Source: Pseudolabrys sp. (GTDB lineage Bacteria; Pseudomonadota; Alphaproteobacteria; Rhizobiales; Xanthobacteraceae). From it: DNA of 42,912 nt. A model generated the notes under the pieces. That model did no database searches. It was given only the letters and a program-made list of their open reading frames with translations, and was not told the DNA's origin. Numbering within the stretch: the stretch's first letter is position 1; the number at the start of each line of letters is the position of its first letter. The translations under genes and the position numbers were made by a program. Shown piece after piece: positions 7,230 to 35,830 of the stretch. The stretch spans positions 1 to 42,912 of the forward strand of contig JALHRB010000030.1 in assembly GCA_022841665.1 (NCBI GenBank). The letters run 5' to 3'.

Positions 7230-8153
7230 CTAGAGCCCTGCGAAATCGAGGCCTGCAAAGGCGGCGCAGTTTTCGAACGCTAAGCCGGCCAGGCGCGGGA
7301 GGCCAAGGCGCAATCGCTCCCCGCGGACCTCGGTCGCGAGCCCGGATTTCCTCACTTCCTCGATCTCCGCAACGATCGTGCGCAAGCGCTTGGCGCTTTC
7401 TGCCGCGTCGACGTCGACGGTCGAGAATACGCCGCACGTATAGACTTGGAGCGTGTTGATCTCCCGCACGAGCGAATCCGCTTCACGGTAGAGATGGTCG
7501 AGTGTGCGACAGAAGGATACTTGGTCACTAACGGGAGGCCCATCGACATGACGGCCGAGGAGCGCCGGCGATCCTACCTGTATGCGCAACTCCAAATCCA
7601 TGATCTCGAGGACCATAGTTTGATCCAGCCGCAATGACAAAGACGTCTCTCGCAACAGCCGGTTCATGGTGTCCCGCTGCAACGCGCTACCAGCGAACAA
7701 GCGCTCGAAAATATCCCTGGCGAACTTTCGTTCAAAATTGACTTTTGTGTCTTGCTTCCAATCTTCGAAATTTCGATTCCCATCTTCCAGGCTTGCTGCT
7801 TTGCAAATCTTGTCCGACCTCTTTTGCTCTCCAAGGACGTCGGCGAGAAGCGACGCTTCGAATTTCTTCTGCGCAAGCGAATAAGTCAGCCGTGCTTTGA
7901 TCTGCCCATTCTCCTCTAGTTGGCGCTGCTTGGTGCGGTCATCCTGCTGCAGCATCAGCGAAATAAAGCCGACCGAGAGGGCGAGCGCCGTTCCTGCAAA
8001 CCCTGAGAGAAATTTTTTCCAGTCATCACGGCGGGCCACCGGATCCTTCGAAGTCAAATAGATGAAGAAAGCAACGGCGACGAAGGCCGAACCTAGAAAA
8101 ACCCAGAGCAGTATAAACGGTAACATGGCCCCCTCGCTAACCGAGGATTGCAA
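7230..8153 (-). CDS. Two-helix membrane protein with coiled-coil domain, low GC
   Basis: A 307-residue protein of unknown function. Transmembrane helix 1 (LPFILLWVFLGSAFVAVAFF, residues about 11-31) and helix 2 (GFAGTALALSVGFISLML, about 50-68) flank a short basic loop (SKDPVARRDDWKKF). The remaining 240 residues are soluble, charged and largely helical, beginning QQDDRTKQRQLEENGQ, and probably cytoplasmic. Base composition differs from the neighbours: 7681-7800 is 46% GC, whereas flanking genes are well above 60%. An alternative start is MLPFILL at 8126. It lies 9 bp downstream of gatA on the same strand. Signs point to recent acquisition; no family is recognised. Confidence 0.75.
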   Translation of the reverse strand: MQSSVSEGAMLPFILLWVFLGSAFVAVAFFIYLTSKDPVARRDDWKKFLSGFAGTALALSVGFISLMLQQDDRTKQRQLEENGQIKARLTYSLAQKKFEASLLADVLGEQKRSDKICKAASLEDGNRNFEDWKQDTKVNFERKFARDIFERLFAGSALQRDTMNRLLRETSLSLRLDQTMVLEIMDLELRIQVGSPALLGRHVDGPPVSDQVSFCRTLDHLYREADSLVREINTLQVYTCGVFSTVDVDAAESAKRLRTIVAEIEEVRKSGLATEVRGERLRLGLPRLAGLAFENCAAFAGLDFAGL

Positions 8154-20056: not shown

Positions 20057-20147
20057 GGTACGACGCAATGTTCCTGCACAGGGACGCGTAGGTGTCAAAA
20101 TACACTGTCTTTTCCATTTGTTAATCTCTAAATAGCAAATTGATCAA

Positions 20148-20168
20148 AATACATCCTTTGGTTGTATT
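20148..20168. promoter_or_regulatory. Inverted repeat in AT-rich topA upstream region
   Basis: AATACATCC (20148-20156) and GGTTGTATT (20160-20168) match at 8 of 9 positions around TTT. They sit in an AT-rich block (20090-20180) between the divergent small gene and topA, so they could be an operator. No named regulator consensus is matched. A TTGACA at 20236 closer to topA lacks a good -10 partner. Confidence 0.35.
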
Positions 20169-20335
20169 GCTGTGTAAAAGTCAGTCTCGGTGCCGCCCTA
20201 TTTGGCTGATCTTAACCCCGCGCCGGGCATGGCTTATTTGACAGCGAGGGTGCCCTTCACCATGTTCCCGGCAAAGCATGCGGCCGATTCCGCCACGGCA
20301 CAGCCTCCGTCGGGCGGATAACCCATTGGATTTTC

Positions 20336-27670: not shown

Positions 27671-27973
27671 CGGCGGCGCGCCTTGTGAGGTGGCCGGCCG
27701 GAAGCGGTGACATGAGGAGGCCACTCGCACCGCCTCCGGGCCGGCCGAACCCTACGGACCCAGGAGATGCGGCGGACCTGAGCACTCCGCAGGGCATTGG
27801 AAGGGGCGCGAGGATGCCGAAGCCGCCCGTCCGCGCCGTCGAGCGCAAGGTTAGACCAAGCGCCCTGCCCGGCCAAACGGCATTTTAAGCCGCTGAAATG
27901 GCGAACGATTTTTCGGGATAAGCCGCGCGCCGGCACGATCCGCAGCGCGAATCTGTGGAAACCGGCCGACGCC
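27671..27973. other. Gap between convergent DsrE-like gene and pleD, no clear gene
   Basis: This 303-bp stretch has no well-supported gene. A 58-codon Pro/Arg-rich frame from ATG 27712 (MRRPLAPPPGRPNP) has a GGAAG site but no recognisable motif, so it is not called. The right half has ATTTTAAGCCG and GATTTTTCGGG islands. No clear pleD terminator hairpin was found. Confidence 0.4.
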
Positions 27974-34591: not shown

Positions 34592-35830
34592 ATGACCGAC
34601 CTTTCGCTCCGCATCCGTGTCGTCCCGTCGCTGGCCGAGGTCCCGGCCGCGGCCTGGGACGCCTGCGCGGCCGGCGATGCGGGCGACGCTCTTAAACTAA
34701 CATCTGAGGATAAGTTATCCCCAGAGTTATCCACACAAGCATTTCGACCCAACCCATTTGTTTCACACGTTTTTTTATCGTCTCTTGAACAGTCGTTTTC
34801 GGTCGGCGCCCGGACCGGCTGGCAGCCCCAGCATCTGCTGGCGGAAGGCCCGGACGGGACGCTGCTGGGCGCCATGCCCTGCTACGTGAAGAGCCACTCG
34901 CGCGGCGAATACGTCTTCGACCAGGGCTGGGCCGACGCTTTCGAGCGCGCCGGCGGCGACTACTATCCGAAACTCCAGGTCGCGGCGCCCTTCACCCCGG
35001 TGACCGGCCCGCGCCTGCTGGCGCGGCCGGGCCCGCTCGCCGACGCCGTGCGCGGCGCGCTCGGCGACGCGCTGGCCGAGATCGCCGCCGATAACGGGCT
35101 GTCGTCGGCGCACGTCACCTTCCTGACCGAGCCGGAATGGCGGCTGCTCGGCGAGCGCGGCTACCTGCAGCGCACCGACCAGCAATTCCATTGGCAGAAC
35201 GAAGGCTATGCGAGCTTCGCGGATTTCCTCGCGCGGCTGTCCTCGCGCAAGCGCAAGACCATCCGGCGCGAGCGCAAGGACGCGCTTAGCCCCGGCATCG
35301 AGGTGGCCTGGCTCACCGGCTCGGACCTGACCGAGAGCGTATGGGACGCCTTCTTCGCCTTCTACATGGACACCGGCTCGCGCAAATGGGGCCGGCCTTA
35401 TTTGACGCGCGAATTCTTCTCCATCGTCGGGCAAACCATGCGCGACCGCATCCTGCTGGTGATGGCCAAGCGCGCCGGGCGCTATATCGCCGGCGCCATC
35501 AACTTCATCGGCGCCGGCACGCTCTACGGCCGCAACTGGGGCGCCATCGAGCACCACCCGTTCCTGCATTTCGAGCTGTGCTACTACCAGGCCATCGACT
35601 ACGCGATTGCCCACAAGCTCGGGCGCGTCGAGGCCGGCGCGCAAGGCGAGCACAAGCTGGCGCGCGGCTACCTGCCGCACACCACCTATTCGGCCCATTA
35701 CGTCGTCAACCCGGCCCTGCGCCGGGCCATCGCCGAGTACCTGGCGCGCGAGCGCGCTTATGTACAGGCGGTGGGCGAAGAGCTTGCGGCGGCCGCGCCG
35801 TTCCGCAAGGATTTGGTCGAATCCGAGTAA
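34592..35830 (+). CDS. FemAB-like / GNAT-fold N-acyltransferase (COG3146, DUF482)
   Basis: A 412-residue protein of the peptidoglycan-like amino-acyl or N-acyltransferase family. Visible stretches: LSLRIRVVPSLAEVPAAAWD, NPFVSHVFLSSLEQSFSVGA, RTGWQPQHLLAEGPDGTLLG, GEYVFDQGWADAFERAGGDY, SSRKRKTIRRERKDAL, FYMDTGSRKWGRPYLTREFF, and GRNWGAIEHHPFLHFELCYY. Substrate is unknown. Odd point: codons 30-70 (34680-34800) are AT-rich with ctt, aaa, tta and ttt, and contain an insert of about 20 residues relative to homologues I recall. The DNA there holds three DnaA-box-like 9-mers. Translation remains in frame throughout. Confidence 0.88.
   Translation: MTDLSLRIRVVPSLAEVPAAAWDACAAGDAGDALKLTSEDKLSPELSTQAFRPNPFVSHVFLSSLEQSFSVGARTGWQPQHLLAEGPDGTLLGAMPCYVKSHSRGEYVFDQGWADAFERAGGDYYPKLQVAAPFTPVTGPRLLARPGPLADAVRGALGDALAEIAADNGLSSAHVTFLTEPEWRLLGERGYLQRTDQQFHWQNEGYASFADFLARLSSRKRKTIRRERKDALSPGIEVAWLTGSDLTESVWDAFFAFYMDTGSRKWGRPYLTREFFSIVGQTMRDRILLVMAKRAGRYIAGAINFIGAGTLYGRNWGAIEHHPFLHFELCYYQAIDYAIAHKLGRVEAGAQGEHKLARGYLPHTTYSAHYVVNPALRRAIAEYLARERAYVQAVGEELAAAAPFRKDLVESE
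34705..34735. promoter_or_regulatory. Cluster of three DnaA-box-like sites inside acyltransferase gene
   Basis: TTATCCACA lies at 34727-34735 (perfect 9-mer for DnaA boxes), TTATCCCCA at 34715-34723 (8 of 9), and the minus-strand TTATCCTCA at 34705-34713 (8 of 9). An AT-rich stretch with T7 follows. Overall GC is 39% over 34691-34800. Confidence 0.6.

Follow-up and report, generated by a model that had tools for sequence, protein, structure and literature searches.

Non-origin sites that control the initiator DnaA have been described in Escherichia coli, and those that we found described are intergenic in the available portion of the source (PMC5742627). They include the DARS sites, in which box I opposes boxes II and III and boxes I and II interact head-to-head, and datA, which works together with an IHF site; both are placed between genes in the same excerpted text (PMC5742627). 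The DnaA boxes of E. coli are also reported to gather towards the origin, where an ori-proximal titration region shows a conserved enrichment of DnaA-box motifs (PMC12371093, as far as the available part goes). No element of the kind presented below was found in the literature consulted, in which coverage is thin and which includes the available parts of PMC5742627, PMC12371093, PMC10797057, and PMC4468827.

DnaA-box control clusters as such are already known; the present array is a conserved one of DnaA type outside the origin, which a coding gene on the terminus side carries in a group for which the literature consulted listed no such site. The array is carried by a femAB-like acyltransferase gene in a 42,912-base stretch of DNA, hereafter the window. 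From sequence comparison across the genus, we regard it, with a probability of roughly one half, as a candidate control site that is bound by DnaA, is specific to the genus, and sits within a protein-coding gene.

The array resembles DARS1 and DARS2 of E. coli in being a three-box cluster far from oriC, in which one box opposes two and the same-strand pair is separated by 3 bp. The boxes at sites -46 (minus strand), -36 (plus strand), and -24 (plus strand) reproduce the arrangement of a box I opposite boxes II and III; however, the geometry of the first pair differs. In K-12, a cluster between bioD and uvrB, which we take to be DARS1, has its boxes in the order +, -, - with gaps of 5 and 3 bp, whereas the femAB array runs -, +, + with gaps of 1 and 3 bp; thus, the -46 and -36 boxes diverge across a 1-bp gap, while the corresponding K-12 boxes converge across 5 bp. 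If site -15 is taken as DARS box I instead, it converges with -24 with no gap, and it is degenerate in the window. The likeness to datA lies in the presence of a DnaA-box cluster outside the origin, datA being a site that modulates DnaA. In datA, the DnaA boxes surround an IHF site and the element stimulates hydrolysis of the ATP bound to DnaA; DARS sites promote ADP release from the protein. In contrast to both DARS and datA, the femAB array is located inside a coding gene. By analogy, a DARS-like function of the array is still conceivable.

Two further systems invite comparison. The titration boxes of E. coli share with the femAB array a conserved enrichment of DnaA-box motifs; however, they are origin-side in the available part of the source (PMC12371093), whereas the femAB array is terminus-side and confined to one gene. 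Within the genus itself, the region upstream of hemE, which corresponds to the Caulobacter-type position of oriC, likewise contains RTCCACA and RTCCCCA boxes beside AT-rich DNA. Unlike the femAB array, this region is flanked by hemE and a kinase-PPPase gene, adjoins the skew flip in genome G011, and is nearly devoid of the YTRTCAACA and RTCCTCA types.

Host Gene and Box Array

The gene hosting the element (Table 1) encodes a protein with a full-length Pfam match to FemAB_like (E 2.7e-156, model positions 1-369 of 369). The original prediction, made from the window alone, had placed three DnaA-box-like 9-mers within 31 bp, in frame in a FemAB-like acyltransferase gene; the exact coordinates and strands of the boxes and the identity of the gene were confirmed, and the alignment bears out that NPFVSHVFLSSLE is a FemAB family pattern. 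The predicted 39% GC was recovered as a value of 0.39 over 34689-34788, which is the third least stable 100-bp stretch in the window. The accompanying statement that the window is otherwise well above 60% GC does not hold throughout, since the window contains 100-bp stretches of 32% GC at 574-673 and at 20088-20187, which are the least stable 100-bp DNA in the window, and a 100-bp stretch of 40% GC at 7708. In terms of GC at third codon positions (GC3), a scan of the window found two in-frame dips, of which that in femAB is the deeper. Elsewhere in the window, the EcpR1 sRNA (RF02500) is matched with 94 bits at 27687-27797 on the minus strand.

Table 1. Positions in the window of the femAB-like gene and of the elements within it
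Feature	Position	Strand	Basis or conservation
femAB-like acyltransferase gene hosting the element	34592..35830	+	412-aa ORF, Pfam FemAB_like PF04339
Variable in-frame linker, residues 26-53, carrying the box array	34667..34750	+	alignment and predicted structure
DnaA-type 9-mer TTATCCTCA, site -46	34705..34713	-	exact in 10/40 genus genomes, close variants in others
DnaA-type 9-mer TTATCCCCA, site -36	34715..34723	+	TTATCCCC[AG] in 13/40 genus genomes
DnaA-type 9-mer TTATCCACA, site -24, best conserved	34727..34735	+	TTATCAACA in 20/40, TTATCCACA in 9/40
Site -15, plus strand CGAGGAYAW in 16/40 (minus-strand TCCTCG type)	34736..34744	-	degenerate in window: CAAGCATTT
AT-rich tail; 16 codons, mostly ending in A/T, from the conserved NPFVSH...FLxSLEQ block	34751..34798	+	

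Across the 42,912 bases of the window, a match to TTATCCACA with at most one mismatch occurs at just five positions, among them sites -46, -36, and -24. With the looser TTATNCACA and one mismatch allowed, there are 13 matches in the window against 6.1 expected, a number reached in none of 100 shuffles; three strict sites within 40 bp were absent from all 200 first-order Markov copies of the window, with an analytic expectation of ~3e-6 per window, and as the consensus had been chosen in the original prediction after the sites were seen, these chance figures are to be read as "not chance" and not as an exact probability.

Conservation Across the Genus

The genus set comprises 43 genomes, in all of which femAB was sought; 40 were kept, G015 and G020 being left out for lack of an orthologous femAB hit and G048 for lack of the N-terminal part. 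Over codons -20 to +15 around NPFVSH, GC3 averages 0.34 in the 40 genomes vs 0.83 over codons 20-120, and a dip of more than 0.2 is present in every one of them. When the NPFVSH codons are averaged in four-codon blocks, GC3 ranges from 0.25 to 0.47 in the genus vs 0.63-0.86 outside (25 genus rows, 85 other rows); outside the genus there is no average dip, yet single outgroup rows (L053, L042, L014, and, less so, L080) show one. In a scan of 800 kb of G011 together with the window, which missed the mnmE insert described below and is not exhaustive, the femAB dip is the lowest in-frame GC3 dip reported (0.27, the next being 0.33).

The linker is 23-64 aa long in the 40 genus members vs 4 aa by the same measure in L074, a row from other Rhizobiales. 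At least one strict box is found in 39 of the 40 linkers and two or more in 19, counts which, like all box and genome counts given here, do not represent independent events, the genus rows being related by ancestry. The linker of G003 has no strict box, and that of G052 has one degenerate site. Long linkers of 54-64 residues characterize seven genomes that form one clade (support 100/100). One to three RTCCACA boxes precede the core in five of the seven, and one RTCCTCA does so in five; the clade members G004 and G040 show no extra RTCCACA there, and G040 also has no RTCCTCA upstream of the core. By eye, the FemAB linkers of some other Rhizobiales (L118, L042, L020, L030, and L021) encode repeats like TTGAATCANNNTCTGAA instead of DnaA boxes.

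The array pattern with a 4-base gap and at most three mismatches is matched in 30 of the 43 genus genomes, at other loci in some cases. The core pattern with at most two mismatches was found in 4 of 198 family genomes, all belonging to the genus (1 of 47 genera), at a setting that is specific and not sensitive, as 7 of the 11 genomes by which the family sample represents the genus go unmatched. Among 297 genomes of the order, the same setting matched three, namely G000, which is the source of the window, an AT-rich place in the 1.5-Mb G389, and mnmE of G427.

Box Excess and the Two Layers of the Element

Across the 40 genomes, boxes within one mismatch of the textbook consensus TTATCCACA number 70 in 4128 bp of linker vs 1 in the remaining 35,784 bp of gene sequence. 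Synonymous shuffling (300 shuffles each) yielded on average 1.8 boxes (maximum 6) under the codon usage of the rest of the gene and 16.4 (maximum 27) under the linker region's own AT-rich usage. The broader YYRTCCMCV, present in 28 of the 40 linkers, was observed 45 times vs shuffle means of 11.0 (maximum 19) and 12.9 (maximum 24), respectively. Loose-motif boxes are spread over the two strands and over several codon phases, where they encode, for example, LST, HEDN, LVHR, and AVDR. A common strand and phase (LST, LSP) is shared by 62 of the 111 loose-motif boxes, and a constraint on the peptide could also be at work in these 62.

The box core and the AT-rich tail behave differently at the codon level. 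In the box core (codons -12 to -4), pairs of sequences with the same residue use the identical codon in 0.79 of cases vs 0.61 in codons 60-200. In the AT-rich tail (codons 0-15), the value is 0.54 vs about 0.61 elsewhere in the gene; because codon identity is only 0.54, the tail has kept its composition and not its sequence. In the AlphaFold2 model, residues 30-51 are predicted to be disordered (pLDDT <50), whereas the block encoded by the tail is modeled with more confidence (mean pLDDT 82 for residues 51-60 and 96 for residues 61-70). This contrast between linker and tail block suggests that the boxes are placed where the protein tolerates change and that the AT-rich tail is a matter of synonymous choice where the protein does not. 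The layout of boxes beside weak DNA is origin-like, and a role in bending or in oligomer entry would be equally possible.

It is nearly certain that the site is selected at the DNA level, as had been suggested originally; the genus-wide GC3 dip, the excess of boxes over synonymous shuffles, and the codon identity in the box core all bear on this point. The proposed check by alignment in relatives found at least one strict box in 39 and the low third-position GC in all of the 40 genomes, and the predicted cluster of DnaA-type boxes adjoining AT-rich DNA stands as a sequence feature of the genus. The option of a recent insert, also raised at the time, did not hold, because the element is common to the genus, in which most FemAB proteins share 72-82% identity with that of the window.

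Chromosomal Position

Position and GC skew were sampled by stretches in four relatives, G011, G004, G040, and G019, the source genome G000 being a draft. In G011 (5.59 Mb, one contig), the skew flips from minus to plus at ~3.99-4.00 Mb, beside hemE (URO-D, PF01208) at 3.9898 Mb, and from plus to minus at ~1.09 Mb; femAB is located at 0.835 Mb, and with a single exception every 10-kb bin between 800 kb and ~1.09 Mb has positive skew. In G004, femAB (2.098 Mb) is followed by a terminus-type flip between 2.26 and 2.44 Mb, and hemE is at 0.221 Mb. In G040, the skew flips between the stretches 1.10-1.12 and 1.14-1.16 Mb, an interval that includes hemE (1.134 Mb); femAB is found at 2.860 Mb. The skew is positive on both sides of femAB in both of these genomes. 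G019 is arranged differently: its skew flips between 1.57 and 1.61 Mb of contig C1, at parS and mnmE, and both femAB (0.029 Mb) and hemE (0.409 Mb) lie elsewhere; the flip that adjoins femAB here runs from plus to minus and is thus of the terminus type.

Expressed as a fraction of the path from origin to terminus, femAB is located at about 0.91 in G011, 0.85-0.92 in G004, 0.84 in G040, and 0.92 in G019, where the values for G040 and G019 assume a terminus opposite the origin and that for G019 also assumes that contig C1 is a circle. In the draft G000, contig C3 carries hemE and two parS cores, and the window corresponds to contig C30. One more exact parS core, the third, was noticed on a contig other than C3, at G000:C7:43026-43039.

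The array does combine, at the level of sequence, a DnaA-box cluster with adjoining AT-rich DNA, as an origin would. Nevertheless, femAB does not lie at a minus-to-plus skew flip in any of the four relatives. With the GC-skew flip at hemE or at parS-mnmE and not at femAB, the array is not the chromosome origin. The skew check named in the original prediction placed the origin-type flip elsewhere in all four, and the chromosome-origin option, with femAB some 84-92% of the way toward the terminus, had to be dropped. A site for DnaA titration or regulation is the sole option of that prediction left, with DnaA binding itself suggested by the enrichment of boxes.

The Probable Reader of the Array

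The hemE gene was found in 41 of the 43 genomes, and 30 of the 41 upstream regions were analyzed; together these contain 141 YYRTCCMCV sites, and 28 of the 30 include CTGTCCAC. RTCCACA reaches 7.9 per kb in the 30 hemE-upstream regions and 6.3 per kb in the linkers, vs 0.06 in the rest of femAB and 0.11 in 800 kb of G011; the corresponding values for RTCCCCA are 3.3, 2.2, 0.03, and 0.08 per kb. The window's own -36 and -24 sites belong to these RTCCACA and RTCCCCA types. The enrichment of both types in both places is the best argument for DnaA that sequence comparison offers, and DnaA is likely to be the protein that reads the array.

Other box types are distributed differently. Upstream of hemE, the loose RTCAACA is enriched about sixfold over bulk DNA (1.28 vs 0.215 per kb), and the loose RTCCTCA shows no enrichment (0.09 vs 0.17 per kb). 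[CT]T[AG]TCAACA and [CT]T[AG]TCCTCA have one occurrence each in 11.7 kb of hemE-upstream DNA. Judged by these counts, the -46 type (RTCCTCA) and the commonest -24 form, TTATCAACA, are not oriC types in the genus, because they are near absent from hemE-upstream DNA. By eye, TTATCAACA and TTATCCCC[AG] both violate the weak-site consensus HHMTHCWVH as quoted in the available part of PMC12371093.

Proposed Role and Competing Explanations

The best reading by analogy is that the array would work like datA or DARS and need not belong to either class. We propose that DnaA would bind the femAB array as an oligomer and that the weak DNA beside it would help the array to bend, wrap, or open. The site could then sequester DnaA or shift its nucleotide state, and its copy number would double late in replication, which would tune when the origin fires again. 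The protein would tolerate the element because the boxes occupy a loop and the AT-rich stretch results from synonymous codon choice.

A wider proposal is put forward only tentatively, namely that the genus may run an alphaproteobacterial counterpart of datA/DARS inside a protein gene on the terminus side and that this element, together with the parS-side insert in mnmE and its presumed CtrA-like repeats, would illustrate the placement of replication-control DNA in tolerant loops of housekeeping proteins. If this is true, a conserved, coding-embedded, terminus-side array in Alphaproteobacteria would imply that such control has evolved more widely, and protein genes would be able to carry non-origin DnaA control sites. 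Because synonymous recoding can eliminate the boxes, the function of a site of this kind would be open to direct test.

Two alternatives concern what the bound protein does or which protein it is. DnaA at the array might control transcription of femAB and of the HIT-domain gene (Pfam) that follows on the same strand, acting as an intragenic roadblock or repressor with no role in replication; the first box starts 113 bp into femAB, the same DnaA-binding data would fit, and DnaA reportedly also acts on cell-cycle transcription in Caulobacter. However, femAB is conserved in other Rhizobiales, which on average have no GC3 dip, and a roadblock has no need of an AT-rich tail kept in composition and not in sequence, so that a purely transcriptional role appears unlikely. 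A sequence-specific protein other than DnaA that recognizes GAGGATAA-N-TTATCCCC as an inverted repeat, together with the TTATC[AC]ACA site, would account for the near absence of the TCCTCA type and the YTRTCAACA form upstream of hemE, and sites -46 and -36 do form an inverted repeat where both are exact (-46 in 10/40; TTATCCCC[AG] at -36 in 13/40). We consider such a reader unlikely, given that five of the seven long-linker genomes add RTCCACA, the main hemE-upstream type, and that the two arms vary without keeping symmetry, as separate boxes would; to our knowledge, no other protein has this site.

The remaining alternatives dispense with a control site for DnaA. A dormant, accessory, or former replication origin, with DnaA boxes beside an unwinding element, would explain why sequence-conserved boxes are followed on one side by ~48 bp that are kept AT-rich and not conserved in sequence; it is nonetheless quite improbable, as none of G011, G004, and G040 has an origin-type skew flip at femAB, the flip in G019 is of the terminus type, and hemE, with its box-rich upstream regions, is present in nearly all of the genomes. 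A constraint on RNA or translation, in the form of a rare-codon pause or an mRNA hairpin from the inverted repeat, would agree with the use of TTA, CGA, CTA, and ATA codons, with GGAUA-N3-UAUCC, which by eye could fold, and with a two-sided change from A-T to G-C at one stem position in 3 of 40 genomes. Yet at the third stem position only 21 of 40 genomes have a pair, with no two-sided change that keeps it, and the hairpin is not supported by the pair counts over the 40 genomes; moreover, codon rarity does not account for the further boxes on the opposite strand and in different phases, making this explanation highly improbable. A neutral AT-rich insert acquired by transfer and not yet ameliorated would match the sharp contrast in composition with the rest of the gene. 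Its probability is almost negligible, since the dip is present in 40/40 genomes while same-residue codons elsewhere agree in only ~0.6 of pairs, the AT-rich tail is conserved family sequence, and no other copy of the 181-bp stretch was found in G000, where 22 other hits measured 16-32 bp (40 of 97 candidates scored).

Related Elements Elsewhere

Beside parS, mnmE contains an in-frame insert between its G4 and G5 motifs (G011 L187:15950-16120; L223-L252), which is AT-rich in most loci read, L249 and L251 being exceptions. Over 28 loci, TTAA-N7-TTAA, presumably the CtrA-like consensus, occurs in the insert 21 times in 14 loci vs 0 in 450 bp upstream, and [AG]TGAA[CT] occurs 69 times in 26 loci vs 2 in 450 bp upstream. 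In another family, tandem DnaA-like sites are located inside mnmE just before the G4 motif (G427 L334:1501-1527; gene recognized by eye). Additionally, in two genus genomes a tandem TTATCCACA pair lies between a hydantoinase-B gene (Pfam, L276) and a small gene, at L275:1686-1712 and L276:1284-1310.
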